IMG/VR virus record: IMGVR_UViG_3300042544_004392
Coordinates: 1-20,544 of that record
Length of the DNA: 20,544 bases
Source: a virus
Strand: one strand, 5' to 3'
Under the pieces are notes generated by a model, which worked only from the letters and a program-made list of their open reading frames with translations, was not told the origin of the DNA and searched no databases. Of the stretch, positions 3,722-19,558 are shown in pieces (position 1 is the stretch's first letter; every line of letters starts with the position of its first letter). Both the position numbers and the translations under genes were made by a program.

Positions 3722-6556
3722 TTACAGAGCTCGCCGCGAATCCAGTAGGCCGCCTGCGCGCTTTTGCGCAAGCAGCTCTTGCCGAACGGCGCTGGCAATG
3801 GCCCGCCCCAAATCACGCCCACCCGACTCATCCCCACGAGCCGCTGTACCGGCCTCCGTCACGTTCACAGAGATGTTGAATACGTCGCCACCGGAAGCAC
3901 CCACTCCGTTTCCTTGCAAGGACACCGGAATCGTTCGACCATCGGGCAGCGGTACATAAGCCTCGGGTCGGGAGCCTTCGCCAAAGAGCGCCAGTTGGGG
4001 TGAGGTTGCCACGCCCCCCGAGGCATAAGCGCGAAGCGGGACAGGACCGCTGCTGCTCATGATGCCGCCATCGGCAAACGGGAACATCGAGCCGATCGCT
4101 TTTGCCAGTGGCCCGGTAATGGCGCTTTGTATCTGTATGCGGATCAAATCGGTAATGATGGATTGCGCGAGGCTCCTGAAGCTCAACTTGCCCGTCAAAA
4201 CAAACTGCGTCAGTGCATCGGTCATGCCGGTGAAAGCACTGCGGGTGGCGTTTTCCATCTGGCGACCGACCTGCGAGGCTTCTTCCGAGACGTCTTTCAA
4301 AGCTTTACTGATACCTGCGGATGGATCAGAGAGTTCTCTTGCCCGTTGGGCCAGCTGCTCAGACGCCGTGGCTGCCCGCTGGGCTGCTTCAGCGATGCTT
4401 TTGAAAGAGTCAGCAAACTTTTCGTTGCCCGGCGAGGCCGAGGCAATGGCTTCAGCTTGGGTGGCCAGCTTGGTCAGCTCCTCGGCGCTTCTCTGTCGCG
4501 CTTGCGAGAGCAAGGTTAACGAGGCGACTTCGGAGAGGGTGCGGGATTCCCGCTGGGTCTTGATTTGTTCTTCGACCGAGGCCAATTCCATCTGGCCACG
4601 TTGCGCCTGCTCCTGCAGGTCTTTCAACGTCTCTGCCGGCTGGCGAATTAAACGCTCGACATTAGCCTGCTGCGCATCGCGCTCTAAGGTTGCTCGCTTT
4701 TTCGCGATTTCAGAGAGCTTATCTTCATACTTCAGTTTGTCTTGAACCGTCTTGGCATCTTTACGCAGGGCCACCTCAAGCAGCAGTTCCTGCTCGGCGT
4801 AAAGCGAGCCGATTTTATTGACGAAATCCTGTTGCGCCGCGACGCGTGCCTGGCTGGCTTCTTTAAAACTGATATAGCCGGCGTTTTCATACAGGTCGAT
4901 CAATCGCTGGCGGTCTTTCAGGATGCCGGACTCTTCATCGACAAAGCGCTGTAGCTCTTTGACCTCGTTATCGATGCCCGCCATCGACTGGCTGGCAGTG
5001 ATGGATGACACTTTAAAGAAGTTTTCCAGATTAGCTTGAGAAGCTTGGCGCTCAATATTCGAGCGTTTGGACGCAATCTCATCGAGCTTGTCCTGGAGCT
5101 TTAATTTTTCCTGAACTGTTTTTGCATTGGCCTGCAAGTTCTTTTTGACCACCGCTTCTTCTTGATCGTAAATCGAGCGTATCTTGGTCAAATAAGCTTC
5201 TTCGGCAGCCGCCCGCGCTGTGGCAGCTTCTTCGGTGCTGATTAAGCCTGAACTCTGGTAGGTGTCGATGATGCGCTGACGGTCTCGCAAGAGCGAGCTT
5301 TCTTCACCAACGGCCCGATCCAAGGCCCGCACCTGGTTCTCCATCGCGGATAAGGCATTGCTCGAATTCGCACCGTCAGCTGTGTTGTAGTTCAGACGCT
5401 TACGCGGTGCGGCTTGCCCATGATCGCCACCGCCAGCACCCTGGCGAATTGCCTCAAATCGCTTCTCTAATGCGTCTGCCAGCAAGGGCATATTCCACAG
5501 GTCTGCATAATTCTGGTTCGCCTGCCGGACAATCTCGTTGCGCTTGGTGAGTGCTTCTTTCAGTTTCGCGCGGTTCTTTTCTGAGAAGGGATTCATCCCT
5601 TCACCACCACCCAGGAAGGTCCCGGCTAATTCAATATCCGCCCACACGGCTTGGAAGCTGCCGACCATGGCTTGCACGGACTTGCCAATCGCCCGCAGGG
5701 CATCGATCACCACCGCCAATGAGTAGGCTGCGGTCTCAGCCCAGGTCGTAATCGACTTGTCCTGCTGGAGCTTTTGCATTCCTTTGACCGCATCGTCCGA
5801 GCCCAGCAAGATTTTCTTCAACTCTTCACCCAAAGCATTCATCGCAGGAATCGACGAAGTCACAATCGTCTGGGCGATGTAGCTGTACTCTGCCCGTGTT
5901 CTCGCCATGGCTTTGATGGCATGCTCGGCAGCGAGGACTTGTTCTGCCGAGAGCCGGATATTCAAATCCTGGTTGTCGGCCAGGTCCTTCAAAAAGGGCA
6001 GCATGCCGGCGCCGGACTTGCCGAACAATTCCATCGCAATCGCGGTCTTCCCTGCGCCATCTTCGAATTGCGCCAGTTTTAACGCGATGTCATTCATCAC
6101 TTCAGCCGGGTCGCGCAGGTTGCCGGCTGTATCGCGGGCATCCACCCCGAGAAACTGCAAGGCCTTGGTAGCACCGGCCGCTTCATCATCGACGCCGGCC
6201 ATACCCTTGGCCAACTTGGCGAGACTGCCTCCAATATTCTCAAGCGTGGTGTGCGAAATAGTCGCTACCGCCTGAAACCCCGACAGCGCCTCGATACTGG
6301 CGCCCGTTTGCTCGGACAGACCTTGTAATGCGGCCGCAGCCTCCAGGGTTTGAAGGACGAAGTCCTTGATTGCAGTGACCGACGTGACCCCCACAGCAAT
6401 CGCAAAGGCTGACTTGGCCACATTGGCGACACTCTGCAATGAGGCTTTCATCTCATTGGCGTGCTTATCCAACAGACGCGCGCTTTTCCCCAGATCCGCA
6501 TGAAACTCGGCCGTCTCAGCAGCGAGCTTGACGACTAGGGAACCAATATCAGCCAT
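3722..6556 (-). CDS. H: Tail tape measure protein (lambda H family)
   Basis: This encodes 944 residues and is the longest gene in the window, as expected for a tape measure. It sets tail length and is ejected with the DNA. Residues about 1-230 are helical and carry the family start (GSLVVKLAAETAEFHADL). A hydrophobic stretch lies at about 48-63. Residues about 400-640 are charged coiled coil built from two copies of a 123-residue unit. The C-terminal part (about 760-830, with GMTDALTQFVLTGKLSFRSL) matches the lambda-type tape-measure C-terminal domain. It is followed by a Gly-rich segment. At 0.15 nm per residue the tail would be about 140 nm. The ATG at 6556 overlaps the end of the T frame by eight bases (ATGGCTGA), and the TAA abuts M. 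Confidence 0.95.
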   Translation of the reverse strand: MADIGSLVVKLAAETAEFHADLGKSARLLDKHANEMKASLQSVANVAKSAFAIAVGVTSVTAIKDFVLQTLEAAAALQGLSEQTGASIEALSGFQAVATISHTTLENIGGSLAKLAKGMAGVDDEAAGATKALQFLGVDARDTAGNLRDPAEVMNDIALKLAQFEDGAGKTAIAMELFGKSGAGMLPFLKDLADNQDLNIRLSAEQVLAAEHAIKAMARTRAEYSYIAQTIVTSSIPAMNALGEELKKILLGSDDAVKGMQKLQQDKSITTWAETAAYSLAVVIDALRAIGKSVQAMVGSFQAVWADIELAGTFLGGGEGMNPFSEKNRAKLKEALTKRNEIVRQANQNYADLWNMPLLADALEKRFEAIRQGAGGGDHGQAAPRKRLNYNTADGANSSNALSAMENQVRALDRAVGEESSLLRDRQRIIDTYQSSGLISTEEAATARAAAEEAYLTKIRSIYDQEEAVVKKNLQANAKTVQEKLKLQDKLDEIASKRSNIERQASQANLENFFKVSSITASQSMAGIDNEVKELQRFVDEESGILKDRQRLIDLYENAGYISFKEASQARVAAQQDFVNKIGSLYAEQELLLEVALRKDAKTVQDKLKYEDKLSEIAKKRATLERDAQQANVERLIRQPAETLKDLQEQAQRGQMELASVEEQIKTQRESRTLSEVASLTLLSQARQRSAEELTKLATQAEAIASASPGNEKFADSFKSIAEAAQRAATASEQLAQRARELSDPSAGISKALKDVSEEASQVGRQMENATRSAFTGMTDALTQFVLTGKLSFRSLAQSIITDLIRIQIQSAITGPLAKAIGSMFPFADGGIMSSSGPVPLRAYASGGVATSPQLALFGEGSRPEAYVPLPDGRTIPVSLQGNGVGASGGDVFNISVNVTEAGTAARGDESGGRDLGRAIASAVRQELLAQKRAGGLLDSRRAL
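4649..5344 (-). repeat. Tandem duplication inside the tape measure gene (123-codon period)
   Basis: Residues 405-513 (bases 5344-5018) and 528-636 (bases 4975-4649) align without gaps at an offset of 123 residues. Matching landmarks are EES at 418 and 541, DRQR at 425 and 548, AKTVQ at 478 and 601, and QAN at 507 and 630. The protein sequence has diverged but heptad-like spacing is kept. This is most simply a past in-frame duplication of 369 bases, which would lengthen the tail by about 18 nm if the segment is a straight helix. Confidence 0.9.
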
Positions 6557-7222
6557 GTTTCTTTAATTTGTGGGCAAACATTGCCTTGAATTGCGCAATG
6601 TTTTGCTGGGATGGATCGGGTTGAGTTTGCTTCTTGATGAACGGCATGAAGTCGTCCGGGGCGAAGGGTCGGGAATGCGGAGACCGGTGGGCATTGGCAA
6701 AGGTGGCCGCGATAAGCCCGCCTCTAAAATCCGCCCGAAATTCGCCAAAAGGCTCCAGTTCATAGAAGGCCATCCATTCCGAGAGTTCGTCCGAGCCTAT
6801 TTTTCCTAGTAAGTCACGCACCGTCATGCCCAAAGCCAGTGCCAGCCGAAAGGCAAAGCGGCGCACCGGCCGGGCATCTAGGCTTTTTTTGCGGCATCGA
6901 CCGCATCCGTACCAATACCGTTGATTCGCTGGGCAATCGTAAAAACGCGGTCCAGCGCGCGAGCACTCTTATTTCCCAGCGCAGCCACTTCAGCATCGGT
7001 AAACAGCCGCGTGCCTGCGGCGTCGCACAGGGTCAGTGACACGAGACGCGCTCTGACGTTCTCCATTCGACCTTCCTTACCGATCAGGCTCGCTTCAAAG
7101 GCATCGCGGTCAGCTCCGGTCATCGTGCGCACCATCACGTCACCTCCCCATTCGGGAATGGCAATGCATTCCAGGGGAAGATCATTGGCAGCAAGGATGG
7201 ATTCTTTGTTCAGCAGGTTCAT
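6549..7222 (-). CDS. GT: G-T tail assembly chaperone fusion made by -1 frameshift
   Basis: The T frame lies one base back from the G frame and has no convincing start of its own. Its first possible start is a GTG at 6866 without a ribosome binding site. A ribosome that slips by -1 at 6890-6884 reads 113 codons of G, then AGC CTA GAT and the T frame to the TGA at 6551-6549, giving a fusion of 224 residues. In lambda the G and G-T proteins chaperone the tape measure and recruit tail tube subunits. The position here, between the tail tube and tape measure genes, is the same. The T part is helical, ends in a basic FAHKLKKHG, and its stop lies within the tape measure start. The mechanism is inferred from sequence; the layout is classical. 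Confidence 0.85.
6878..7222 (-). CDS. G: Tail assembly chaperone G
   Basis: This is the unshifted product, 114 residues ending DAAKKA at a TAG (6880-6878). The frame is open to 7249, but the ATG at 7222 is preferred because GGAGG lies nine bases upstream. It starts five bases after the end of the tail tube gene (stop at 7229-7227). The sequence (IPEWGGDVMVRTMTGADRDAFEAS near residue 24) fits phage tail assembly chaperones of siphophages. Lambda gpG binds the tape measure protein during tail assembly and is absent from the virion. Most ribosomes should make this short form, with a minority continuing into T. Confidence 0.88.
   Translation of the reverse strand: MNLLNKESILAANDLPLECIAIPEWGGDVMVRTMTGADRDAFEASLIGKEGRMENVRARLVSLTLCDAAGTRLFTDAEVAALGNKSARALDRVFTIAQRINGIGTDAVDAAKKA
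6884..6890 (-). promoter_or_regulatory. Programmed -1 frameshift slippery site A AAA AAA
   Basis: On the minus strand the end of G reads GCA AAA AAA GCC TAG, so seven A residues form an X XXY YYZ type heptamer (A AAA AAA G) just one codon before the stop. Slipping back one base joins G to T without loss of reading. Lambda uses G GGA AAG at the same place. Whether a downstream pairing structure helps is not evident to me. Confidence 0.85.
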
Positions 7223-7226
7223 GGTT

Positions 7227-7637
7227 TTATGCCTCCGTGATATCGCCATCGATCTCGATCGTTACCGACGCTTCGACAACTGCATCGACACCCCCCTGAA
7301 CGCTGAACTGGGTGACATACCCGTAAAACGTCCAGACAGTGGGGATGGTGTCCGTAAAAGTGATGCGAAACTGTTGTCGGACACGATTCGCCCGGTCAGT
7401 GCGCAAGCCGTCGTGCACCGCATTGTCGGGATCAAAATGCAACGTCAGAGAAAGCGAGCCTTCATCCCGCAGACCCATACGCTTCTCTTTTGCCGTGGAC
7501 GAGAGGTTCGTGACATCAATGACCTGGGCTTGTCCACCCGGACCTTGGAAGGAAACAATATTCGGTATCGTCTCAAAGGCAGTGGTGCCCATTCTGGCAA
7601 TCGTGATGCCCTGGGCGATGATCGCGGTACTTGACAT
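7227..7637 (-). CDS. Major tail tube protein
   Basis: This encodes 136 residues. It lies between the tail terminator and chaperone genes, where siphophages encode the tail tube subunit. It has the small tube-protein pattern: an N-terminal beta segment with IDVTNLSSTAKEK (about 40-52), GSLSLTLHFDPDN (about 61-73), and a C-terminal FYGYVTQFSVQGGVDAVVEA. Subunits stack as hexameric rings around the tape measure. The ATG at 7637 has GGAG seven bases upstream, directly after a run of eight T. The leader between this gene and the preceding stop carries three small stem-loops, unlike the tightly packed genes on either side. Confidence 0.85.
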   Translation of the reverse strand: MSSTAIIAQGITIARMGTTAFETIPNIVSFQGPGGQAQVIDVTNLSSTAKEKRMGLRDEGSLSLTLHFDPDNAVHDGLRTDRANRVRQQFRITFTDTIPTVWTFYGYVTQFSVQGGVDAVVEASVTIEIDGDITEA

Positions 7638-7644
7638 GCGTAGT

Positions 7645-7715
7645 CTCCAAAAAAAAGAAAAGGGGTTTTGGGGCCCGGAAGGGCCACATTAAAATGTTTG
7701 CTAGAGGTGGCTAGC
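7645..7715 (-). promoter_or_regulatory. Stem-loop leader before the tail tube gene
   Basis: In minus-strand order this leader has GCTAG/CTAGC (7715-7711 with 7704-7700), ACATT-TT-AATGT (7697-7686) and GGCCC-TTCC-GGGCC (7685-7672), followed by a C-rich stretch, T8 (7656-7649) and then the GGAG ribosome binding site. The T run lies about 15 bases past the GC hairpin, so this is not a canonical terminator. It could stabilise or mark a processed end for the tail tube mRNA. Confidence 0.4.
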
Positions 7716-8046
7716 GGAGATAGGTGTAGTCGACCGTGATTCGGTACACGCGGGCTTCTTCATCGAATCCGCTATTAACCATACGGACATCAGACACCGT
7801 ATCGATCGCGGCCATCACCGATCCCAGGACTTCGTCTTGAAGTTGATTCGCTGCTTGCAGCGTCTTGGCATACACATCGACCTGCATGCGCAGTCGCACA
7901 ACACCGTGCAGGCCGTTAATGCCGATAACCTGCTCAGTGGCTACGGGTGTGTAGACGATGTAAGGGAATGCAGTCTCGCCTGGTGCGATCAAGGCGAACA
8001 CGCGCGTCTGGGCCAGATGCTTGATTGCTTGATAAAAGTATTGCAT
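7711..8046 (-). CDS. DUF3168 tail completion/terminator protein (lambda U-like role)
   Basis: This encodes 111 residues with the DUF3168 pattern: a helical start, FPYIVYTPVATEQ (about 27-39), VRLRMQVDVYAKTLQAANQLQDEV (about 50-73) and a C-terminal YRITVDYTYL. The family is structurally related to lambda gpU and HK97 gp10-neighbour tail terminators, which cap the finished tail and join it to the head. Its place just before the tail tube gene fits. The start forms TGATG with the upstream stop (8048-8044), so translation is coupled. The TAG at 7713-7711 sits inside a short hairpin of the tail tube leader. Confidence 0.85.
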   Translation of the reverse strand: MQYFYQAIKHLAQTRVFALIAPGETAFPYIVYTPVATEQVIGINGLHGVVRLRMQVDVYAKTLQAANQLQDEVLGSVMAAIDTVSDVRMVNSGFDEEARVYRITVDYTYLR

Positions 8047-8531
8047 CAGATCTTGGCTAGCTTCTTGGCTTCGGCGTCGATCCGCTCAGCCAGTCGCGTC
8101 GTAATGGCATCAACTGCTTCTTGCCGCTTGACTTCGAGTGCCGGACGCAGGAACGGACGGGCTGGCATTTTTGTTGTGCCAAATTCAATGAAGCGCCAGT
8201 ACCAGGCATCTTGGGAAAGGTTTTTCTTCTTCCCCTGAAGCCGGTATTTTTTCCCGTGCCGAACCGTCACAAAAAACGTCTGACGAGTCAGGCTCGATAG
8301 CTCCGGAATATGTTTCATGATCACGGAACGCTTTAAGGTGCCCGGCGGAGGCTGATTGGGAATGGCTTCCGCGGCTTTGGGTGCACGGGACTTGGCTTCA
8401 TCCCGCACCACCTTGGCCCCGGCATACACGGCGTTTCGTAGTCCGTTCTTGGCCACTCGTGCGGGGAGTTGATTTAAGAGCTTCACCAGTTCAGCGGCGC
8501 CCTTGACTTGCATGCGCTCAAACTTAGCCAT
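8046..8531 (-). CDS. HK97 gp10-family head-tail joining protein
   Basis: This encodes 161 residues of the HK97 gp10 family. The landmarks are a helical N-terminus (KGAAELVKLLNQLPARVAKN), a stretch of small polar residues (KSRAPKAAEAIPNQPPPGTLK), and the typical WRFIEFGTTKMPARPFLRPA near residue 115. Members lie between the head-closure and tail-terminator genes and act in tail completion. Two adjacent ATGs exist at 8534 and 8531. AGAAGG is eight bases upstream of the second, which I chose; it overlaps the previous gene by eight bases (ATGGCTAA). The frame is open to 8552, but that start would lack a binding site. Confidence 0.88.
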   Translation of the reverse strand: MAKFERMQVKGAAELVKLLNQLPARVAKNGLRNAVYAGAKVVRDEAKSRAPKAAEAIPNQPPPGTLKRSVIMKHIPELSSLTRQTFFVTVRHGKKYRLQGKKKNLSQDAWYWRFIEFGTTKMPARPFLRPALEVKRQEAVDAITTRLAERIDAEAKKLAKI

Positions 8532-8874
8532 CATCGATGCCTTCTGAAGCATAAAGGGTCAACAGAACGTTCTCTTCGTCCTCGTTGATGCCCCCATGTA
8601 TTTTGAAGATCCGCCCGCCATGCATACCTCGAAAATTCGGCAGGTCTCGCAAGTCAGCCAAAGTGGCTTGGTAGCGCACCGAGATCTGATGTGTGATCTC
8701 TGCTGATATGCGTTGCGCAATCACGAGATGGCGTGCTGAGATCGGAGTGATGCTGGCCCAGACTGTTTTGAACGGCATCCAGCTGCGCGCTGGCGCACCA
8801 AGCTCATCGACTACCGTTGTGGCCCGTTGCAGGGCGAGCCGGTGGATGAGCATCCCTGCCGGTACCGCTGTCAT
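8524..8874 (-). CDS. Head closure / head-tail adaptor protein
   Basis: This encodes 116 residues of the SPP1 gp16-like head-tail joining family. Supporting segments are LIHRLALQRATTVVDELGAP (about 9-28), WMPFKTVWASITPISARHL (about 32-50), and the late HGGRIFKIHGGINEDEENVLLTLYA, a common end of this beta-barrel fold. It forms the ring beneath the gp6-like connector that closes the filled head. The ATG at 8874 overlaps the stop of the connector gene by ATGA (8874-8871). The end overlaps the gp10-family gene by eight bases. Confidence 0.87.
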   Translation of the reverse strand: MTAVPAGMLIHRLALQRATTVVDELGAPARSWMPFKTVWASITPISARHLVIAQRISAEITHQISVRYQATLADLRDLPNFRGMHGGRIFKIHGGINEDEENVLLTLYASEGIDDG

Positions 8875-9446
8875 ACAAGGGCCACCCGGTAGGGATCCAG
8901 CAAGCCATCCACAAACGGTAACGGGTCAATCCGCCCACGCATTAAGATCGACATCTCCTCGCGGTGCGCGTAGAGACTACCGACACGCAGCTTGATCCAA
9001 CTCTTAAGGCCCTCGGGTACTGTTTGCGCTGCACCATATCCCGCATCGAAGGTGATCGTCACCGCACCAATCTGCGGCAGGGTGTTTGGCCAGGTCTTGC
9101 CAAACACCGGGGTGATTCGTGCCGGCTCACACGCGGTATCCACCACGTAGTCGATCAAAGGCATCGTCTGACTAATGCCATTCATGTCGAGATACTGAAT
9201 ATTCATGACCGATTGCACCGGGCATTTCGCTAAAAGGATGGCATGACATGGAAATGCATCCAGTACCAGCTTCCAGCGCGCAGTCATCAACTGCCTGCCC
9301 GTCAACGTCTCTGCTGCCTGACGGGCAGCGGTAATGATGGAGCTAATGAGTGCATCGTCATCGTCAACATCTACCCGCAGGTGAAGCTTAGCCTCGGCCA
9401 GAGACACCGGTTCCCCTGCGGGTGGCGTGACGAGTTGCAAGGACAC
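8871..9446 (-). CDS. gp6-like head-tail connector
   Basis: This encodes 191 residues. The opening (LQLVTPPAGEPVSLAEAKLHLRVDVDDDDALISSIITAAR, in parts) is the hallmark of the HK97 gp6/phage connector family: a short strand, then the helical SLAEAK element, then an acidic loop. The rest includes WKLVLDAFP and VTITFDAGYG. Twelve or thirteen copies form a ring below the portal. The start is a GTG at 9446, two bases after... more exactly three bases beyond the previous TAA (9452-9450). No strong ribosome binding site is seen, so re-initiation from the upstream gene is likely. The stop overlaps the head-closure start. Confidence 0.88.
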   Translation of the reverse strand: MSLQLVTPPAGEPVSLAEAKLHLRVDVDDDDALISSIITAARQAAETLTGRQLMTARWKLVLDAFPCHAILLAKCPVQSVMNIQYLDMNGISQTMPLIDYVVDTACEPARITPVFGKTWPNTLPQIGAVTITFDAGYGAAQTVPEGLKSWIKLRVGSLYAHREEMSILMRGRIDPLPFVDGLLDPYRVALV

Positions 9447-9449
9447 GGA

Positions 9450-9899
9450 TTAGACGACCTGAGCGACCGCTGCTTGGTTGGCGCCTTCAGCCGGTGCAAA
9501 GCGTGGATCAACCCCTAGCAATTGAGCGGCGGTCTGGGCGGCAGCACTGGCAACTGTTACCACGACGCGGACATAAGTAAAGCCGCCATTGACATCCAGC
9601 TCGTCCGGGCGAAGGTTGATTAGCGCCTGACGATTTGCGCCATTTACCGCTTGAGCTAGCTGGGTAATTGCTTTGCCAGCGATGTCCTTAGCGCCTGTGC
9701 CTGCGGCATCCGTTGATTGCTGAAGCTTCGCATCTACGGTACTGCCATTGGCCATGGCACCGGTCTCGATCATGGCCAATAGCGTATGGTGGGCATTCAA
9801 TGCCACCCAACCGCTCGCAGCCACACCAATGGCTTGGTTGCTTGGATCAATACTGGCAAGTACTGCCAGTCGTTCACTACCTTTTGCGTTGGGAAACAT
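9450..9899 (-). CDS. Unassigned small head-module protein (possible decoration protein)
   Basis: This encodes 149 residues, with AAGGAG six bases before the ATG at 9899. I do not recognise a named family. Visible features are an opening FPNAKGSERLAVLASIDPS, several Ala/Gly/Thr-rich strands, DAKLQQSTDAAGTGAKDI near residue 56, and ELDVNGGFTYVRVVVTVASA near residue 104. There is no signal peptide, membrane segment or cysteine. It lies 27 bases after the major capsid gene and before the connector, a position where phages often place a head decoration or other minor head protein. That role is inferred from position and from the beta-rich, Ala-rich composition only. Confidence 0.7.
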   Translation of the reverse strand: MFPNAKGSERLAVLASIDPSNQAIGVAASGWVALNAHHTLLAMIETGAMANGSTVDAKLQQSTDAAGTGAKDIAGKAITQLAQAVNGANRQALINLRPDELDVNGGFTYVRVVVTVASAAAQTAAQLLGVDPRFAPAEGANQAAVAQVV

Positions 9900-9926
9900 A
9901 CAAATCTCCTTAAAATTGTGGCCGAG

Positions 9927-11252
9927 TTAGCGAGCGCCGAGTTGAACGAAAGGCGACATTGACGCGCTGCCCTTGGCTGGAGAGATGGGCGCTGCAATCT
10001 TGGATTGGCCGTCCATGCGGAAGGTGGTCCTAAATGCCGTTAGATCTGCGTCGAAATAAAGATGCATCGACGTGGCTGTTTGCATGCCGCCCGCTTTAGT
10101 GATGGTCTGGTAGTAGGACAAATCAGCAAGCAGCACGTCCCCTTGGCCTGAGAAGGTGTTGGCATGTTGAGATATAAAAACCGGTCGACCCAGGAGGCTG
10201 CCGTAAGGCGAGATCTGAATGCCGCCTACCGACAAGCCTGTAGGCAGATAGATCGGATAGTTGCCCAGCGTGAGTGTGAAGAGGGCTGGAAGCACATCGT
10301 TATTGACGATCCAGACTGATTTCCCAAAACTTCCCGGTGGCAGTCGAGAAATCATTTTTGCCAGGTTTTGCGGCGTGAGGGTTTGCGTTGCCTGGTTCTG
10401 CTCTTTAGCAACGGTCACCGTTGTGCTGTTGTTCATGCAGCCCATTGGTACCCCAGTCCCCGAGCCAAAGAGGATGGATTCGTTGGTTTTCCAGCGAATG
10501 GAGGTGGCGATTTTTTCGGGCAGATAGCTCGACAGGGCATTGGTGTCGTCGAGCAGCTCATCGGTGACGGGAACTAACGCCATCAATTTTTTAAGGCGCA
10601 AGGTAGACAGCCCCAACACCGGCTTCGTGCTAGCTGCAGGCGTGGCTTCACCCTGCCAGTACGCACGAATGCCGTTGCTGCCCCAGGGCGTAGTTTCATC
10701 TTTCGGAAACGCCATCGTGTTTCCGGTGATCTCAACGTTATCCGTCATCGGCAGCAGCGAATCTTCACCCAGGGACAACTGGAAGATTTCACGCGCAAAC
10801 TGCGGCGGCACCAGAAAGCCGCCGTCTTGTGCAGAGCCTTCATTGCCGAAGTTCGCTGGCACCGCCGCGCTGCGGGCCGAACCAAGGATCAAACGTTCAT
10901 CGATTGTGCTGCCGGGCTTCTGGGCCTGGCAGACAGTTTTCAGGAATTCGCCAACGCTATGAAAGCCATGGGTTGGATTGCCCTCACGGTTGTCCGTTAC
11001 AGAAATGATGGCTGAGGGGGTAATCGGTGCTGAATAAGCGACATGCGCCATCTGCGCTTCTTCAGCGATCAAGGCCGCTTCGCGGTCGATTGCACCGGAC
11101 GCCGCTTCGATTTTCGATTTCAGCGCATCAAAGGCCGACAATTCTTCATCGGTCATGTCGCGCTCTTCTGCAGCAGCGATATCAGTCAGGGTGCGTGCAT
11201 CCTTGACCAGGTTGGCTTTGCGAGACTGAAGCTCGCGCAATTTATTGCTCAT
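9927..11252 (-). CDS. HK97-fold major capsid protein
   Basis: This encodes 441 residues. Residues about 1-110 form a charged helical scaffold (delta) domain, as in HK97-type capsids that lack a separate scaffold. The HK97 core follows, with GSAQDGGFLVPPQFAREIFQL (in parts, about 150), the E-loop region with MAFPKDET, LMALVPVTDELLDDT and the late LADLSYYQTITKAGG. The delta domain is probably removed by the upstream S49 protease. The frame is open to 11288, but the ATG at 11252 is chosen because it starts the delta domain and has GGAGAG five bases upstream. A strong terminator-like hairpin lies immediately before that ribosome binding site. Confidence 0.95.
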   Translation of the reverse strand: MSNKLRELQSRKANLVKDARTLTDIAAAEERDMTDEELSAFDALKSKIEAASGAIDREAALIAEEAQMAHVAYSAPITPSAIISVTDNREGNPTHGFHSVGEFLKTVCQAQKPGSTIDERLILGSARSAAVPANFGNEGSAQDGGFLVPPQFAREIFQLSLGEDSLLPMTDNVEITGNTMAFPKDETTPWGSNGIRAYWQGEATPAASTKPVLGLSTLRLKKLMALVPVTDELLDDTNALSSYLPEKIATSIRWKTNESILFGSGTGVPMGCMNNSTTVTVAKEQNQATQTLTPQNLAKMISRLPPGSFGKSVWIVNNDVLPALFTLTLGNYPIYLPTGLSVGGIQISPYGSLLGRPVFISQHANTFSGQGDVLLADLSYYQTITKAGGMQTATSMHLYFDADLTAFRTTFRMDGQSKIAAPISPAKGSASMSPFVQLGAR

Positions 11253-11269
11253 TAGGTCTCTCCATAAAT

Positions 11270-11295
11270 AAAAAAGCCACCCGAGCAAGGGTGGC
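11270..11295 (-). terminator. Terminator-like hairpin directly before the capsid gene
   Basis: On the minus strand GCCACCC-TTGCTC-GGGTGGC forms a perfect 7-bp GC-rich stem followed at once by TTTTTT (11275-11270) and ATTTAT. This is a good intrinsic terminator by sequence. The capsid ribosome binding site (GGAGAG) begins about eight bases later, leaving no room for a new promoter. It may therefore be read through in the late operon, or serve as an mRNA 5' stabiliser. Confidence 0.7.
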
Positions 11296-11303
11296 GATTG
11301 GGG

Positions 11304-11346
11304 TGCGACCTATGGGTCGCAAGGTTTGTAGCGCTCAACGGAGCGC
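11304..11346 (-). other. Two further perfect hairpins between protease and capsid genes
   Basis: Upstream of the terminator-like hairpin are GCGCTC/GAGCGC (11331-11336 with 11341-11346, 4-base loop) and TGCGACC/GGTCGCA (11304-11310 with 11315-11321, 4-base loop). With the hairpin at 11276-11295 they give three consecutive perfect stem-loops in a 114-base gap. This gap is the longest between structural genes in the head-tail block. They have no coding role that I can see. Confidence 0.65.
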
Positions 11347-11366
11347 ATCAAGTTAAATTTAAATTT

Positions 11367-12302
11367 TTACATCAAGGCGATCGCATCACGTGCATGTTGA
11401 AGACGTGGGACATGCGTAGATCTCAAGGGGATTGTAGTGCGTGCCTGCTTTTGCATTTTGAGCAGTACTTGATCAAAGCTGGCAACGCTATCGACCATGC
11501 CTTGTTTTATTGCAGCGTCAGCGCCAAGCACACGACCTTGCCCCATGCCCGAGATAACGTCAGCGACCGATACGTTTCTGCCCTTGGCAACCGATTGCGC
11601 AAACGCTTGGTAGTAGTCCTCCACCCGAGATTGCATGAACGCTTGTGCCTCGGGATCCAGTGGGCCGTAAGGATTGCCTTCTACCTTGTAAGTGCCGGAG
11701 GAAATCAGTGTTGTCTTGATCCCGGCATCATCAAACGCCTTGCTGAAATCCTGGTGCGCTTGCCACACGCCGATACTGCCGACTTCGCCACCCGGGGTGA
11801 CGTAGAACTCGCTGGCCGAGCAACCGATCCAATAGGCAGCCGACGCAGCCAAACTGTTGGCAATTGCGATGATGGGTTTTTGTGAGCGGGCCTGAAAAAT
11901 CTCCTCAGCCAGTTCAGCCACCCCGTAGACGCTGCCACCCGGGCTGTCGATATCGATGAGTATCTGACCAACTGAGGTGTCAGCCAGCAGCTGACGGAGC
12001 GCTGCCGAGAATTGTTCGGTGCTGGTGCAACCCGGCCCTGAGATGTTGTCGACCATATTGCCGCGTTGCGTGATGACACCGTAGAGCGGCAGCACAGCGA
12101 TGCCTAGACCGGAACGTTCAGCCACGTATTGTTTGCGTGTAGTACGAACCACGCGGTCCGTATGGATCTGAAACTGCACACTGTCCTCGGGCTCTCGTCC
12201 ACCCGACCAGCGCGCCAAGACACTGGCAATCGTCTGCAGTCGGTCAGGCATCAGCGCCCAGGGTGTGCTCAGAAATTCTCCAAGCAGTAATGAAGGATTC
12301 AT
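11367..12302 (-). CDS. S49 (SppA-like) head maturation protease
   Basis: This encodes 311 residues of the S49 serine peptidase family, which lambda protein C also belongs to. The ClpP/crotonase fold is visible: VLPLYGVITQRG (about 70-81), ILIDIDSPGGSVYG (about 114-127), the catalytic serine Ser154 in NSLAASAAYW, and the general base Lys206 in SGTYKVEGNPYGPLD. The position between portal and major capsid genes implies it cuts the capsid delta domain and other head proteins inside the prohead. No separate scaffold gene follows, and the C-terminal tail after about residue 280 is short. The ATG at 12302 overlaps the portal stop by ATGA. Confidence 0.93.
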   Translation of the reverse strand: MNPSLLLGEFLSTPWALMPDRLQTIASVLARWSGGREPEDSVQFQIHTDRVVRTTRKQYVAERSGLGIAVLPLYGVITQRGNMVDNISGPGCTSTEQFSAALRQLLADTSVGQILIDIDSPGGSVYGVAELAEEIFQARSQKPIIAIANSLAASAAYWIGCSASEFYVTPGGEVGSIGVWQAHQDFSKAFDDAGIKTTLISSGTYKVEGNPYGPLDPEAQAFMQSRVEDYYQAFAQSVAKGRNVSVADVISGMGQGRVLGADAAIKQGMVDSVASFDQVLLKMQKQARTTIPLRSTHVPRLQHARDAIALM

Positions 12303-13798
12303 GGTGTCGTTCCCAATGTAATTAGTAATTTACGCAAGGTGCTTTCGTCAGGGAGGGGGTCGCAGTTTTTTGCCCAGTGCTTGACTGATTCGTGGCTTAC
12401 GCCCAAAGCGTCAGCAATGAGCGATATATCGTTCGCGCCAATGACTCCCTTTTTGTGAATGCGTCGCGCCAGACGGCGAGCGTTCGATGCAACTAACGCG
12501 CCAAACCGCAAGCGCAGATCGGCGTCAGTTGGGTTTGCTGTTTCCCCGGGCTCCGATTCCGGATCGGTATCAGGAGTACGCGATGCGCTTTCCGTTTCAG
12601 ACTCTTGCGCATCAGACTCTTCGACCATGTTGAGCGGCCGCAGCGGCTGTTCAAGACCGGCAAGAGGATTTAAGTTTTCTGCTGCCCGCGCTTCGTTACG
12701 AGTGAGCCATCCGTTTTGGATGCCGCTTTGGTAATACGCTGAGCGGCTGGCCACATCACCACGCATCAAATTAGAAAAATCAAATTCGACTTCCAACGCT
12801 TCGCTATCGAAGATCAAATCACGTCCAATTGCCGCTTCCCAGCGCTCAGCCCAGGGTGTCATCGTGTGCATGACGAATTCCAGACTCTGCTGTTCGATAT
12901 TGGAAAAGGTGGCCCGGTCTAGATCCGCGATCATGTGGGGTGGCAATCTAAAAAGGCGCGCAATGTCCGTGATCTGAAACTTGCGTAGTTCCAGAAATTG
13001 CGCATCCTTGTTGGTGACACCCACTTCGTGGAATTTCATGCCGTTTTCAAGGACGAGAACTTTGCCTCGGTTCGCGCCAGACTGCGCTTGCTGATAGGAC
13101 TCCCGAAACACTCGCTTTGCCTCGGCGTCCTTGAAGTTTCCTGGGAACTCGATCCAGCCGCCGGTGGGCTTGGCGTCATTTGCAAAAAATCGTGCGCCAT
13201 AGTCTTGCGCGGCCAGCGCCATGCCCAGACTCTCGCGGGCGAGCTCAATCGGGCTCATACCCACCAAGCCGTCGGAGGACAGTCCCCGCAGATGCCACAC
13301 TTCGCCGCGAGGCAAAACCAATTCAGCCCCTCCGGCCTGACTGATCCGGTATCGGTAGTCACCGTTGGAGAGCATCTCCAGCGTCACCCGATCCGGGTGA
13401 ATGGGCAGCAGCTCGGTAATTTCACCTTTTGCATTGGCCAGAATCTGGCAGTACGCATTGCCGCGTAGCGTCAGGTGGCCCTGAAGCATCTCGCGCCATT
13501 CAAACGGATTCTGGTAGCGGTTGGGCGTGCGGGCCAGCCGGTGATATAGCCAGTGATCTTTGATACGGTCTTTGCCGCCATCGGGTCGGGTCCGGTAAAC
13601 CACGATGGGCAGCGAGGCCATGGTTTCCGACAAGATGCGAACGCATGCATAGACGGCTGCTAAGCGCATTGCGGCATCGGCAGACACCCGCATACCGGAG
13701 ACACTTCTTGACCCGGCCGGCTCAAAATAAAAATCGCCCCAGGGCGATCGGTCGGCCCGATACGCTTTGAAGCGATCAAAAAAACTCAGTAATCCCAT
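12299..13798 (-). CDS. HK97-family portal protein with C-terminal extension
   Basis: This encodes 499 residues. Residues 1 to about 395 are a typical HK97-type portal: DAAMRLAAVYACVRILSETMASLP (in parts, about 41-64), GNAYCQI, GLVGMSPIELARESLGMALA (about 177-196), and the late NIEQQSLEFVMHTMTPWAERWE. Twelve copies form the DNA channel at one head vertex. Beyond residue 395 there is an acidic, Ser/Glu/Pro-rich linker and then about 70 residues rich in Arg and Lys. These end in a segment that looks like a helix-turn-helix (NDISLIADALGVSHESVKHW, 456-475). The gene follows the large terminase by four bases and overlaps the protease start. Confidence 0.94.
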   Translation of the reverse strand: MGLLSFFDRFKAYRADRSPWGDFYFEPAGSRSVSGMRVSADAAMRLAAVYACVRILSETMASLPIVVYRTRPDGGKDRIKDHWLYHRLARTPNRYQNPFEWREMLQGHLTLRGNAYCQILANAKGEITELLPIHPDRVTLEMLSNGDYRYRISQAGGAELVLPRGEVWHLRGLSSDGLVGMSPIELARESLGMALAAQDYGARFFANDAKPTGGWIEFPGNFKDAEAKRVFRESYQQAQSGANRGKVLVLENGMKFHEVGVTNKDAQFLELRKFQITDIARLFRLPPHMIADLDRATFSNIEQQSLEFVMHTMTPWAERWEAAIGRDLIFDSEALEVEFDFSNLMRGDVASRSAYYQSGIQNGWLTRNEARAAENLNPLAGLEQPLRPLNMVEESDAQESETESASRTPDTDPESEPGETANPTDADLRLRFGALVASNARRLARRIHKKGVIGANDISLIADALGVSHESVKHWAKNCDPLPDESTLRKLLITLGTTP

Positions 13799-13802
13799 GG
13801 GA

Positions 13803-15515
13803 TTAAAGCAGCATCAATTCGTAATCAGTGCCCAGCACCACCGCGTCACCCGGCTTGATAGCTCTGGAGAGCGCCATGATGAGGGCGACGATGCCGTCGA
13901 TTTTGTTTTCTGGTCGTTCCTTGCGCGGGTAGATGTTGTCTTTGACATCGAGATGCGCGACGACATTGCTGGCCATCCACGTTAGGACCGGATCGCTGTC
14001 ATGCGCTAATTTTCTCTGGAGCACCAGCGCTTCAAGGATTTTCATGGGCTCACTGAAGTTAAGAACGGTGGGACGCACTTCGATCATCGGCAGCCCTTCG
14101 GCCAGCATGCGCGTTGATAATTGCGTAGCCTGAAACGGGTCAAAGGCCACCGCCTGAATGGCAAACCGAGACGCCATATCGAGGAGGTCAGCCTCAATCC
14201 AGCTAAAGTCAATCACATTGCCGGGTGTGACAGTTAGACGTCCTGTGCGCATCCAGCCCGAATACTGGCTATTGCCGGCGCCATGGACAGTGTCTTCAGG
14301 CAGGTAGTATTTGCCGAACGTGACATACGCATCAGCAATCTCTGGATGTGCAAAAACCAGAATCAGCGCGGCGATGTCCGTTTTGCTGGCCAGATCCAAT
14401 CCGATCCAGCAGGGCTGACCAATAAAGTTATCAATGTCCAGACTGGTGTCAGCGCAAGCGTCCCACGCGCGCATATCCATCCATGCTGTATCAGCATTGA
14501 CCCACTCATTCAAGTGCTTGGTCTTGAAGTTGTTGACTGCGCTGGGCAGTTGCATGGCCTTAGCCTGCAGCGGTCCCAATATCTCAGGTCTGACCGAGAT
14601 GCCCCAGTTAGGGTTGGCCTTGATGAGTGCATTTTCACTGGTCCAGTCGTCGCCATCGTCTAGGCCGTAGATGATGCCGAACTGCGTGTCATCCTCGAAC
14701 ACGCCATCGAGCAGTTTGGAGACGAAGGTACGCACCTCGTAACAGATGCCTGCCCGGTTGCTACCAGCGGTGGTGATTACCCACAAGAGCGAGTTATCGC
14801 GTTTGCCGGTACCGGTTTCGACTACGTCGTAGACAGTACGTGTTTTATGAGCGTGCAACTCGTCAACACATCCAAAGTGAATGTTCAGACCATCAAGTGT
14901 CGAACCTTCAGCAGAGAGAGCTTCAAATTTTGAGCCTGACGCCAGCACGTGCATGTTGTGCGCGCCGACGTTCACGGAGAACCGCGTACGAAATCCCGGA
15001 CTGCGCCGGGCCATCGTTTGGGCATCGCCAAAGACGATCCGTGCCTGGTCGCGGGTGGTCGCCAGCGAGTACACCTCGGCACCGCCTTCGTGATCAGCGG
15101 CCAGCATGTAGAGCGCCACCGCTGAGGACAAGGTCGATTTGGCGTTGCCGCGAGGGACCTCGATGTACGAGCGCCGAAAACGTCGTTTGCCATCGGGTGT
15201 CACCCATCCAAACACCGTCGTCAGGATGAATACTTGCCACGGCTCCAGACTAATCGGCTCACCCGCCAGCGGCCCCTTCACGTGCGGTAAACGCTCAATG
15301 AACGCGCACAGGTTATCTGCGGGGCGAAATCCCCGGCCATTCCGGTCGCTTAGCTTCGGGTTGAAGCGATACGGACTGTCTCTCCCTTTGAAGCGAGCCA
15401 GGTCGTTCAACTGACGCTGACAGGCCAGTTGCACCCAGTGGCAGGCCGGGATTGCACCGGTGACCACAGATTGCGCGTACTGTTTTGCTGTGGCGGCATA
15501 GGAAGAGTTTGCCAT
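13803..15515 (-). CDS. terL: Terminase large subunit
   Basis: This encodes 570 residues of the HK97-type terminase family. The ATPase half has a deviant Walker A (PRGNAKST, 121-128), a Walker B ending in CVDE (216-219) and the coupling motif ITTAG (247-251). The nuclease half has acidic residues at Asp374 (IGLDLASKTD), Asp459 (AFDP) and Asp540 (NKIDG), placed as in RNase H-like terminase nucleases. It pumps DNA through the portal and cuts at the packaging site with the small subunit and probably the HNH protein. The ATG at 15515 has only a weak upstream GGAAT. It is separated from the small subunit gene by 681 bases that hold an oppositely oriented toxin-antitoxin pair. Confidence 0.95.
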   Translation of the reverse strand: MANSSYAATAKQYAQSVVTGAIPACHWVQLACQRQLNDLARFKGRDSPYRFNPKLSDRNGRGFRPADNLCAFIERLPHVKGPLAGEPISLEPWQVFILTTVFGWVTPDGKRRFRRSYIEVPRGNAKSTLSSAVALYMLAADHEGGAEVYSLATTRDQARIVFGDAQTMARRSPGFRTRFSVNVGAHNMHVLASGSKFEALSAEGSTLDGLNIHFGCVDELHAHKTRTVYDVVETGTGKRDNSLLWVITTAGSNRAGICYEVRTFVSKLLDGVFEDDTQFGIIYGLDDGDDWTSENALIKANPNWGISVRPEILGPLQAKAMQLPSAVNNFKTKHLNEWVNADTAWMDMRAWDACADTSLDIDNFIGQPCWIGLDLASKTDIAALILVFAHPEIADAYVTFGKYYLPEDTVHGAGNSQYSGWMRTGRLTVTPGNVIDFSWIEADLLDMASRFAIQAVAFDPFQATQLSTRMLAEGLPMIEVRPTVLNFSEPMKILEALVLQRKLAHDSDPVLTWMASNVVAHLDVKDNIYPRKERPENKIDGIVALIMALSRAIKPGDAVVLGTDYELMLL

Positions 15516-15541
15516 TGTGGAAATTTTTAGACTATTCCTGT

Positions 15542-15570
15542 TTGACGTTATTAACGCCGTTCGGTAATAT
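15542..15570 (+). promoter_or_regulatory. Sigma-70-type promoter for higBA
   Basis: TTGACG (15542-15547) and TAATAT (15565-15570) are separated by 17 bases, giving 5/6 matches to each consensus hexamer at ideal spacing. Transcription should start near 15576-15577, which is the higB ATG itself, so the toxin message appears leaderless. It reads away from terL. Confidence 0.75.
15546..15556 (+). promoter_or_regulatory. Likely HigA operator palindrome
   Basis: CGTTA-T-TAACG is an inverted repeat with perfect 5-base arms and a one-base centre. It overlaps the end of the -35 box and lies in the spacer of the higBA promoter. HigA antitoxins usually repress their own operon by binding such palindromes, so autorepression is inferred. 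Confidence 0.6.
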
Positions 15571-15575
15571 CAGGC

Positions 15576-15857
15576 ATGCCGATCCAATCGTTCCGATGTG
15601 CCGACACCGAAGCCCTCTATCGCGGCGAGCGCGTCGTTCGTTGGGTCAATATTGAGCGGGCAGCACTTCGTAAACTCACCCAACTCGCGGTGTCGCCGCG
15701 TTTGGAAGACCTTCGCGTTCCTCCTGGCAATCGTCTAGAGTTGTTACGGGGAGACCGGGCAGGGCAGTACAGCATCCGCATTAACGATCAGTGGCGGGTT
15801 TGTTTCGTGTGGGCTGACGATGGTGCCCACGATGTGGAAATCATCGATTACCACTAA
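15576..15857 (+). CDS. higB: HigB-type toxin (RelE superfamily mRNA interferase)
   Basis: This encodes 93 residues. The sequence opens MPIQSFRCADTEALYRG and closes with LLRGDRAGQYSIRINDQWRV and a final EIIDYH. This is the HigB pattern, including the C-terminal Tyr-His pair that matters for ribosome-dependent mRNA cleavage in the family. The toxin gene precedes the antitoxin gene, the usual order for HigBA. The ATG lies only five bases past the -10 box and has no ribosome binding site, so translation would begin on a leaderless mRNA. The pair lies on the strand opposite to the terminase genes and looks like an acquired accessory module. Confidence 0.92.
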   Translation: MPIQSFRCADTEALYRGERVVRWVNIERAALRKLTQLAVSPRLEDLRVPPGNRLELLRGDRAGQYSIRINDQWRVCFVWADDGAHDVEIIDYH

Positions 15858-15869
15858 AGGAGTTTGATC

Positions 15870-16181
15870 ATGACCAAAATTGCACCGGTTTCTCCCGGCG
15901 AAATGTTGCAGGAAGAATTCCTCAAACCTTTGGGGCTGACCTCCTATCGACTGGCAAAAGACATTGACGTCCCCGCGACTCGAGTCTACGACATCGTCTC
16001 TGGAAAAAGGGCCGTGACAGCTGAAACCGACCTGCTGCTTTGCCGGTATTTTGGGCTGACTGATGGATGGTGGCTGGCCGTACAGTCTCATCACGACACG
16101 CACGTCGCTCGTCGGGAATTAGGCAAGCGACTCGACGCGATTCCTCGTTGTTCTTTGCTGGATGAAGCTACAGCACACTGA
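15870..16181 (+). CDS. higA: HigA-family antitoxin (XRE helix-turn-helix)
   Basis: This encodes 103 residues. The opening IAPVSPGEMLQEEFLKPLGL (about 4-23) and the helix-turn-helix SYRLAKDIDVPATRVYDIVSGKR (in parts, about 25-48) are diagnostic of HigA addiction-module antitoxins. It should bind and neutralise HigB and repress the operon at the palindrome near 15550. The ATG at 15870 has AAAGGAG seven bases upstream, overlapping the higB TAA (15855-15857). A TTG at 15864 in the same frame is less likely. The strong binding site here, against none for higB, would favour antitoxin over toxin. The gene ends 15 bases before the oppositely directed small terminase gene, with no visible terminator. 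Confidence 0.93.
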   Translation: MTKIAPVSPGEMLQEEFLKPLGLTSYRLAKDIDVPATRVYDIVSGKRAVTAETDLLLCRYFGLTDGWWLAVQSHHDTHVARRELGKRLDAIPRCSLLDEATAH

Positions 16182-16196
16182 CGGATCATCCTGCAA

Positions 16197-16661
16197 TCAA
16201 CCCGCTATTTCAGCCCAGGGGTCGTCCTGCGATGCAGGCTCTGGCGACACCTGGACGCGTGAGCGGGACGCAGGCGTAAACCCCATCTCTGACTCGTAGC
16301 CCTTCATCTCCTGCGCCAGATCCCGGATGACATCCATCAACGGCGAACGCCGCAAGATTCCACTGGGTGTTTTGATGATCATTCCAGCGACACCAGACCG
16401 ATTGATCTTCGCCAGCGCTTCTCGGTAGAGGCCCGCACAATTTGCCCAGCGTTCCAGCACGGCTGCATCCAGTGACGAAAACAAACCAGGCGGCGCATTC
16501 TGAATAGCGTAGGTCCAGGCTTCCTTAGCAATCTCCGACATGTACTCTGGCGGCTCGCCCAACAGCCCCTGCGGACGAGGTTCGTTTGGATTAGTGCGGC
16601 ACTTCTGCAGCGTACCCTTAATTTTTTTGACGGCAACTGGTAAGGGTTTACGGCCGGCCAT
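16197..16661 (-). CDS. terS: Terminase small subunit (P27 family)
   Basis: This encodes 154 residues of the P27 family of small terminases. Markers are the basic opening AGRKPLPVAVKKIKGTLQK (about 2-20), NEPRPQGLLGEPPEYMSEIAK (in parts) and LERWANCAGLYREA near residue 69. This is followed by a helical region and a flexible acidic C-terminus. It recognises viral DNA and directs the large subunit. P27-type small subunits are commonly found with an HNH nuclease encoded alongside, as here. The ATG at 16661 has a poor GGATGA site upstream. The gene is separated from the large subunit gene by the inserted higBA pair. Confidence 0.92.
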   Translation of the reverse strand: MAGRKPLPVAVKKIKGTLQKCRTNPNEPRPQGLLGEPPEYMSEIAKEAWTYAIQNAPPGLFSSLDAAVLERWANCAGLYREALAKINRSGVAGMIIKTPSGILRRSPLMDVIRDLAQEMKGYESEMGFTPASRSRVQVSPEPASQDDPWAEIAG

Positions 16662-16753
16662 CAGTCATCCAAAAAAAGTTTTTCATTTTGCACGCACAAA
16701 AATGTGGGCAGGCGCGCGCATCGCTGGTTGCCCATCGTAGAGATTTGACCCCC
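16662..16753 (-). other. Gap between HNH and small terminase genes; candidate cos region
   Basis: This 92-base gap has a run of A residues followed by T runs near the terS start, an alternating GCGCGC tract (16713-16718), and an inverted pair TGGGCA (16705-16710) with TGCCCA (16729-16734). In HK97 the cos site lies between its HNH gene and terS, so the same is suggested here by position. No cleavage site can be identified by eye. Confidence 0.3.
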
Positions 16754-16763
16754 CTAGGGGGTC
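16747..16763 (-). other. GC hairpin across the HNH stop codon
   Basis: GACCCCC-CTA-GGGGGTC forms a 7-bp stem with a 3-base loop holding part of the HNH TAG stop (16756-16754). No T tract follows on the minus strand, so it is not a standard terminator. It may protect an mRNA 3' end or belong to the packaging site. Confidence 0.5.
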
Positions 16764-17128
16764 TTGCGGCTGGATGCTGCTTCCTTGGCCGTTTTACGGT
16801 TGTGGCAAGGGATGCACAATGGTTGCAAGTTCGCCCGGTCAAACCTGGCACCGCCCAGTTTGATCGGCTGGATGTGATCCACCACCTTTGCAGCGACGAG
16901 CCGGCCTTTGGCTGCACAAGACGCACACAGCGGGGAAGCTCTCAACAGCGCCGCTCTGATCCGACGCCACTCGTTGGACTGATAAAAACCCACTTCCGTA
17001 TCAAAGCTTCGGCGTGCCCGTCCATAGTCACGGTGCACTGCGACACGATGCTTCGGACAAAAGCCGGGGATGTCGAGAACGGCCCCGCAGCCCGGGTATC
17101 TGCAAGGGGTAGGGGCACGTTGGGGCAT
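16754..17128 (-). CDS. HNH endonuclease of the packaging module
   Basis: This encodes 124 residues. The N-terminal part has Cys9, Cys14, Cys24 and His27, which could form a small zinc knuckle. The HNH domain follows, with Cys68/Cys71, Asp84-His85 in VVDHIQPIKLGG, Asn100, Cys105/Cys108 and His109-Asn110 in CIPCHNRKT. HNH proteins encoded beside terminase genes work with the terminase in specific cleavage of concatemers, as shown for HK97 gp74. I chose the ATG at 17128, where the family sequence begins. A GTG at 17137 is in frame, but neither has a well-spaced ribosome binding site. Confidence 0.9.
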   Translation of the reverse strand: MPQRAPTPCRYPGCGAVLDIPGFCPKHRVAVHRDYGRARRSFDTEVGFYQSNEWRRIRAALLRASPLCASCAAKGRLVAAKVVDHIQPIKLGGARFDRANLQPLCIPCHNRKTAKEAASSRKTP

Positions 17129-17248
17129 CCTCGACACTATTCAAAAAAGAAGCGGAATCAACCAACAGTCCGCGAGAATTCACTTGTCTTCTCTGGGTGT
17201 TGAAGCGTTCATACGAACCCGATCAACTGCATCCATAGGAGCGACATC

Positions 17249-17731: not shown

Positions 17732-17742
17732 TGATTCCTGGC

Positions 17743-18969: not shown

Positions 18970-18982
18970 GTAGGTGCAAATG

Positions 18983-19557: not shown

Positions 19558-19558
19558 C

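Follow-up and report, generated by a model that had tools for sequence, protein, structure and literature searches.

A conserved two-hairpin module and a terminator-like hairpin precede the major capsid gene in one phage capsid lineage

The major capsid protein (MCP) gene of the virus studied here (IMG/VR virus record IMGVR_UViG_3300042544_004392, positions 1 to 20,544; this whole stretch of 20,544 nucleotides is called the window below) was preceded on the minus strand by three stem-loops (HP1, HP2 and HP3, in the direction of transcription), located between it and the gene for an S49-type head maturation protease. HP1 and HP2 are one conserved module under selection at the RNA level, and HP3, which is distinct from it, combines the anatomy of a terminator with specificity for the capsid gene. 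An earlier model-made examination of the DNA letters (the sequence-only reading) had pointed to the hairpins and overlooked that HP1 and HP2 are a single module separate from the terminator HP3, that the terminator stays by the capsid gene when other genes intervene after the protease, and that the module goes with a single capsid lineage. As the folds were kept in relatives while their letters changed, the leader is very likely functional, and its job is probably the control of the amount of capsid protein. It could well be a structured leader in the capsid mRNA which gates the read-through of transcription into that gene, similar to an attenuator, and this is the reading tentatively preferred here.

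The three hairpins of the window

The head genes (TerS, TerL, portal, S49-type protease, MCP and head-tail adaptor) were encoded on the minus strand, with the protease at 11367..12302 (phrog_53, E 1.7e-92; stop codon TAA at 11369-11367) and the MCP gene at 9927..11252 (phrog_10, E 9.5e-52; ATG at 11252-11250). All the elements of the leader were located on the same strand. HP1 (11331..11346, GCGCTC-CGTT-GAGCGC) had a 6-bp stem and a folding energy of -8.9 kcal/mol, and HP2 (11304..11321, TGCGACC-CATA-GGTCGCA) a 7-bp stem and -10.7 kcal/mol; their tetraloops, CGUU and CAUA respectively, were both closed by a C-G pair, and they make up the first and second halves of the module. HP3 (11276..11295, GCCACCC-TTGCTC-GGGTGGC; 7 bp, six of them G-C, loop of 6 nt, -13.6 kcal/mol) was of the intrinsic-terminator type and was directly followed by a T6 tract (11270..11275), hairpin and tract together covering 11270..11295. 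The Shine-Dalgarno (SD) sequence of the capsid gene, GGAGAG, was at 11258..11263, and a GGAG was present in most of the relatives' leaders inspected by eye. The capsid start was set at ATG 11252-11250, as relatives aligned from residue 1 of this start; the TTG at 11288, the start in a program-made list of open reading frames, falls inside the HP3 loop.

The 81-nt stretch holding the hairpins folded into exactly HP1, HP2 and HP3 (-36.5 kcal/mol, z -5.4), and none of 200 shuffled versions was equally stable. Three perfect GC-rich hairpins (stem of at least 6 bp) within 90 nt occurred at this single site on the minus strand of the window, and an equivalent cluster was found in none of 40 dinucleotide-shuffled windows, so the three perfect stem-loops described in the sequence-only reading were indeed there. 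Its placing of the last hairpin, with a T6 tract, ahead of the capsid ribosome site was also correct, the distance between tract and SD being 6 nt and not about 8. HP3 ranked first among the terminator-like sites in positions 1-20000, where such sites were in only mild excess overall (28 vs. 19.7 expected); no sigma-70-like site was detected on the minus strand of these positions.

Covariation and geometry of HP1 and HP2

Relatives were collected by MCP similarity from IMG/VR (the best 80 of 496 relatives, 83-98% MCP identity) and from bacterial genomes (63 loci, 53-98% identical, with one exception at 29%), the latter mostly from Betaproteobacteria according to their record titles, e.g. Limnohabitans, Polynucleobacter, Ramlibacter and Accumulibacter. 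L-numbers are the labels of these loci and their leaders. Limnohabitans prophages with the element include those of L. parvus II-B4 (L135) and L. radicicola JUR4 (L131 and L134). After removal of exact duplicates, 122 leaders were retained; any two of them differ by one or more of 150 letters, near relatives being included. Most of the leaders inspected by eye shared the layout of the window. HP1 and HP2 were recognized by a strict two-hairpin pattern in 95 of the 122, and by eye some of the remaining 27 had the hairpins in variant letters and others lacked them.

An alignment, A2, was built from 40 of 47 representatives (L009, L026, L048, L062, L076, L098 and L189 were left out), its members having been picked by a pattern that fixes the apical pairs. 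Standard pairs occupied 89.4% of the HP1 and HP2 pair cells, both sides had changed in 11 of the 16 pairs, and the covariation score was 0.385, compared with 0.148 (sd 0.014) in shuffled alignments and at most 0.094 in slid ones. Because the apical pairs had served to pick the sequences, the score was recounted on the 9 pairs outside the selection (0.637 vs. 0.227). G-U cells outnumbered A-C cells (48 vs. 23, or 42 vs. 12 without the weak outermost HP2 pair), which indicates that the transcribed strand is the likely selected molecule; a DNA operator was rejected on account of the covarying stems and this excess of G-U over A-C. The sequence-only reading had proposed aligning relatives to learn whether stems persist as loops vary. 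The relatives displayed this, by covariation in HP1 and HP2 and by a kept stem and a free loop in HP3, so that its refuting condition was escaped in part, namely on conservation.

It is very improbable that the leader consists of an ordinary terminator and uninteresting inverted repeats, maintained by chance or phylogenetic inertia. Many of the sampled sequences are closely related, and the shuffle control leaves this relatedness in; however, the covariation was far above both the shuffled and the slid controls, and the module persisted at 58-75% MCP identity although the flanks diverged.

The loops and the distances were also constrained in the 95 strict units. The first loop base was C in 92 of 95 units for HP1 and in 92 of 95 for HP2, mostly as C-[CNNN]-G tetraloops, and the loop-to-loop spacing was 23-31 nt (sd 1.7; the pattern permitted 22-36). 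The HP2-to-ATG distance, by comparison, ranged from 66 to 216 nt (sd 17.9). HP2 was present as a tandem duplicate in six leaders (L023, L032, L072, L075, L076 and L132).

Terminator-like hairpins at the capsid gene

A terminator-like hairpin was defined as a GC stem with 5 or more T among the next 8 nt, located within 70 nt of a gene start. Such a hairpin preceded the capsid start in 119 of the 122 leaders (the exceptions were L104, L178 and L181). When the same loci were used as a control, it was found before the MCP gene in 118 of 121 cases, but in only 11 of 479 tests for six other genes: 1/88 for the portal, 1/112 for the protease, 1/33 for TerL, and 5/106, 1/94 and 2/46 for three downstream genes; after the capsid gene the count was 5/110. 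The pairs of the HP3 stem changed type in 44 distinct versions (no more than 80% alike), with a free loop of 4-18 nt. HP3 of the window, with a GC-rich stem longer than the 5 bp required of an intrinsic terminator and the adjacent T6, thus looks like a genuine intrinsic terminator as judged from its anatomy. It is similar to known intrinsic terminators in the GC-rich stem and the T-run, and differs from them in being placed a few nucleotides before the capsid SD instead of after an operon, and in being usually preceded by a covarying two-hairpin module. Some lineages carried tandem terminator-type hairpins before the SD (e.g. L150, L152 and L180, by eye).

The protease end was known for 118 leaders. 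In these, the gap between the protease and the hairpin block was smaller than 200 nt in 91 and at least 350 nt in 25, measured with extrapolated protease ends (the gap of L173 and L174 may partly be a longer protease end). The terminator-like hairpin had stayed no more than 70 nt from the capsid start in all 25 large-gap leaders, and the strict HP1-HP2 unit was kept in 16.

Promoter-like sites in the 250 nt upstream were not enriched (5 of 122 leaders vs. 6.7 in mononucleotide shuffles), and a promoter upstream of the block was consequently rejected for the 122 leaders. No promoter fits after HP3 either, and capsid expression would therefore come from read-through or processing. This agrees with the sequence-only reading, which had named read-through, antitermination or RNA processing.

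Two other explanations make use of the terminator. In the first, which takes up the stable capsid mRNA end suggested in the sequence-only reading, the block would form and stabilize RNA ends: late RNA would be cleaved, or its synthesis partly stopped, at HP3; the packaging-gene RNA upstream would have its 3' end guarded by the hairpins; and a distinct, stable mRNA for the capsid would begin with the U-rich stretch and SD. The position of the hairpin cluster at the packaging/capsid boundary, the kept stem and free loop of HP3, and the terminator-like hairpin retained by the capsid start in every large-gap leader are all in its favour; nevertheless, protection needs neither a pair of same-type tetraloops at near-fixed spacing nor tandem terminators, and we hold this explanation to be unlikely, if worth keeping in mind. 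The tandem terminators of some relatives would fit read-through control better than a private stable end of the capsid mRNA. In the second, partial termination at HP3 would free a structured RNA of about 100 nt acting in trans, as might be expected of a structured domain ending in a terminator-type hairpin; this is quite improbable, given the lack of promoter-like enrichment in the 250 nt upstream and the differences, seen by eye, in the sequence upstream of HP1 between leaders with and without inserted genes.

Distribution of the module

A covariance model of the module (R1, 62 positions) was derived from A2. It matched the window at 11299..11357 (minus strand) with 58.7 bits and E 4.6e-13, the window being among its 40 source sequences. 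Of 74 loci searched, 33 of which were R1's own rows, 57 had a match at E <= 0.001, one match each and always ahead of the MCP gene; 15 had no match, and the match was weak in two (L154, where it was elsewhere in the locus, and L280, where it covered HP2 only). In one order (300 genomes), an MCP gene followed each of the six matches that scored below E 1e-9, but none of ten weak, chance-like matches (E 0.002-0.008). Within 399 genomes of one family, the MCP gene was next in 6/6 matches at E <= 1e-5. The strong R1 matches all preceded an MCP gene of this HK97-fold family.

Text patterns gave the same association. The two-hairpin pattern had a sole match in 398 genomes of the phylum, the centre genome of that set, ahead of its MCP gene, which makes the module rare beyond this phage lineage. 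The common HP2 16-mer was found exactly in 54 IMG/VR stretches, 43 of them holding this MCP and 11 without it, and in these 11 no HP1 was seen in the displayed context. The two-hairpin pattern occurred in 119 IMG/VR stretches, and among the 80 matches listed were 64 new loci: 59 had the MCP, two were cut off at the MCP start, two were unrelated and one was L280.

L280 carried, at 1472-1526, an HP1/HP2-like pair with wider spacing and no T-run, and its upstream protease was 41% identical. Its capsid gene had no tblastn match to the MCP, but a Phage_capsid domain was present just downstream in the record, and the range of the module may thus extend past this family of capsids.

No Rfam 15 family matched the leader of the window. 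Homology to isrK was considered for L390 and rejected (31.9 bits vs. a gathering score of 50), the aligned letters agreeing mainly in the terminator. A literature search, which left out most subscription journals and preprints, found no published description of the leader.

The close tie between strong matches and this MCP family would also suit a translational operator, in which a phage protein, possibly MCP itself, would bind HP1 and HP2 to repress or tune capsid translation, while HP3 and the U-tract would keep the SD open and might bind ribosomal protein S1. The same tetraloop type occurred in both hairpins, in the close group of leaders (which includes the window) and in a distant group described below, and a U-rich stretch lies beside the SD. 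Against this, the distance from HP2 to the ATG was variable, and a GC stem with a T-run, sometimes repeated, is the anatomy of a terminator and superfluous for an operator. A pairing of the CUCC of HP1 with the GGAG of the SD, attractive in the close group, was rejected, as the CUCC was lost in distant leaders (L386, L402 and L394). On balance we find such an operator rather unlikely.

A possible gate for transcription into the capsid gene

Attenuators are built in this way, with a structured domain and then a terminator right before the ribosome site, and the block would therefore most likely govern how much transcription enters the capsid gene. According to the preferred reading of a read-through gate, HP1 and HP2 would together be a two-part RNA recognition site, whose binding partner is probably a factor of the phage or host, or the RNA polymerase itself, and HP3, doubled in some relatives, would be the gate immediately ahead of the ribosome site of the capsid gene. 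Unless the right signal is given, polymerases arriving from the head operon, cargo genes or the host chromosome would halt at HP3, short of the costly capsid gene; late in infection the polymerase would pass HP3, helped by or regulated through HP1 and HP2; and in the lysogen the gate would also protect the capsid gene from transcription that comes from cargo genes or the host. We infer termination in vivo, read-through, the bound factor and the direction of its action.

In the attenuator leaders of bacterial operons, such as riboswitches and ribosomal-protein leaders, a structured domain and then a terminator lie ahead of the SD of the gene under control. The leader described here is similar in having a conserved structured domain and a terminator ahead of the capsid SD, but differs in that no alternative terminator/antiterminator pairing was found and in having no known ligand and no Rfam match. 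The coat-protein operators of single-stranded RNA phages are small hairpins, too, whose tetraloop is constrained and which lie close to a structural gene, a description which also suits HP1 and HP2; in this case, however, the phage has double-stranded DNA, and the hairpins are paired and upstream of the capsid gene itself.

A resemblance in layout was also seen with the putRNA of phage HK022, two stem-loops which alone can make the polymerase ignore terminators (PMC9378689). The putRNA comprises two stem-loops in about 60-70 nt of a phage transcript ahead of terminators, comparable to HP1 and HP2 (62 positions) ahead of HP3. Put is downstream of early promoters, whereas the module described here is between the protease and capsid genes and has simple stems and C-[CNNN]-G loops; the likeness is one of layout. 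By analogy, HP1 and HP2 may work like putRNA.

Several results weigh against a read-through gate of this kind. No alternative antiterminator pairing was found, pairings of the terminator arm not having been checked systematically, and the Q-type antiterminator families PF06530 and PF03589 had no match in 22 records, which may be fragments. The U-tract was degraded in some relatives (e.g. L046). HP1 and HP2 were kept without a visible T-run in L104, L280 and L428, and in L104 a small reading frame lay between the module and the capsid gene; conversely, terminators were kept and HP1 was lost in L158, L160, L165 and L172, where HP2 was changed, and in L154, where HP2 was unrecognizable. Since each element persisted without the other in some leaders, the module and HP3 are not strictly coupled. 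Finally, in five named phages with 23-33% identical MCPs, the module, or a gap to hold it, was absent.

These named phages had been considered as carriers. Bradyrhizobium phage ppBdUSDA122-1 had one long hairpin, and no HP1 or HP2 was recognized by eye in Caulobacter phage TMCBR2; in Streptomyces phage Dagobah, Escherichia phage Evi and Halomonas phage QHHSV-1 the annotated gap between protease and capsid genes was just 3, 14 and 37 nt, respectively. The long hairpin of the Bradyrhizobium phage (L381:1400-1500, CGCCGGACA...TGTCCGGCG) was ahead of a capsid gene with 33% MCP identity and is possibly an analogous leader.

In the leaders L158, L160, L165 and L172, HP2 was replaced by a hairpin of the form GCGA-loop-UCGC.

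Tailed phages make hundreds of capsid subunits and about a dozen portals from one operon, a difference usually ascribed to how strongly each gene is translated. In phages of freshwater Burkholderiales and their relatives, the boundary between packaging and capsid genes, marked precisely by a covarying RNA structure and a conserved terminator, would represent a concrete control point at the RNA level.

Pseudoknot and protease stop codon in the distant branch

A distant branch (L386-L436), whose MCPs were 49-63% identical to that of the window, had an elaborated leader in which the protease stop codon was within a short hairpin, typically GGGCU...AGCCC. The stop was in the protease frame in 19/19 distant leaders, these being hand-chosen non-duplicates of the 27 leaders, among 35 distant ones, with the stop-codon hairpin pattern. 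The loop of this hairpin paired with a segment right after HP2: the pairing score with the leader's own partner was 9.29, against 6.23 (sd 0.65) for permuted partners, and none of 2000 permutations scored as high. This score is based on 14 of the 19 leaders; L390, L393, L395, L401 and L434 were excluded, as the script did not identify a pair of perfect hairpins with 4-nt loops in them, and in both L405 and L428 one of the hairpins was taken in the wrong register. The pairing makes a covarying pseudoknot that encloses HP1 and HP2. In the close group, complementarity between the segments before HP1 and after HP2 was no better than permuted (7.39 vs. 7.81, n = 41), and the pseudoknot is therefore claimed for the distant group only.

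The stop-codon hairpin and the pseudoknot could sense protease translation. More broadly, the leaders might represent a new class of phage RNA with twin C-[CNNN]-G tetraloop hairpins, joined in one branch by a pseudoknot with the protease stop in its 5' hairpin, where capsid output would be adjusted at the terminator, or at the SD, in response to protease translation, a protein of the capsid lineage or the polymerase. Such leaders would be the counterpart, in double-stranded DNA phages, of ribosomal-protein leaders and RNA-phage coat operators, and would double as an insulated docking site for lysogeny cargo. Taken as a whole, this proposal is speculative and rather unlikely.

In seven distant leaders (L386, L390, L393, L395, L401, L402 and L411) the SD continued directly as AGCCC or AGUCC. 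These letters complement the GGGCU strand of the hairpin around the stop codon, and a switch hiding the SD by this pairing is possible. The stem letters of HP1 and HP2 seemed, by eye, to be swapped in L405, L407 and L413, with the loop type unchanged.

Read-through of the stop codon to give a protease-capsid fusion was rejected as a general function. The capsid gene was in the protease frame in 16/30 distant and 42/115 close leaders, but both in frame and open in only 9/30 and 23/115, and the window had an in-frame TAG. The in-frame share of the distant group was above one third.

Cargo genes between protease and leader

The gap between the protease gene and HP1 appears to be an insertion hotspot in relatives, with cargo that includes three kinds of type II toxin-antitoxin pair. 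Fifteen large-gap loci (20 reading frames) were searched, and eight had Pfam matches over the cut-off (coordinates, where given, are those of the gap): a GNAT toxin with a TacA antitoxin in L018 (1382-2196), GNAT in L128, YefM-YoeB in L024 (1548-2091), a ParD-ParE-like pair in L026 (3319-3841), HTH in L031, DUF3800 in L151 (3616-4617), NYN in L172 (4148-4921) and rhodanese in L168. PADLOC gave one weak match in 10. Toxin-antitoxin cargo inserted at the same boundary would link capsid control to the carriage of accessory genes by prophages.

Capsids resembling those of Burkholderiales phages were also present in metagenome-assembled genomes of Bacteroidetes (L164 and L176) and Alphaproteobacteria (L183, L184, L187 and L188), which are probably binning errors. 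Elsewhere in the window, positions 17743-19005 (minus strand) encoded a protein with matches to both ParB-like and DNA methyltransferase families (best match phrog_498).
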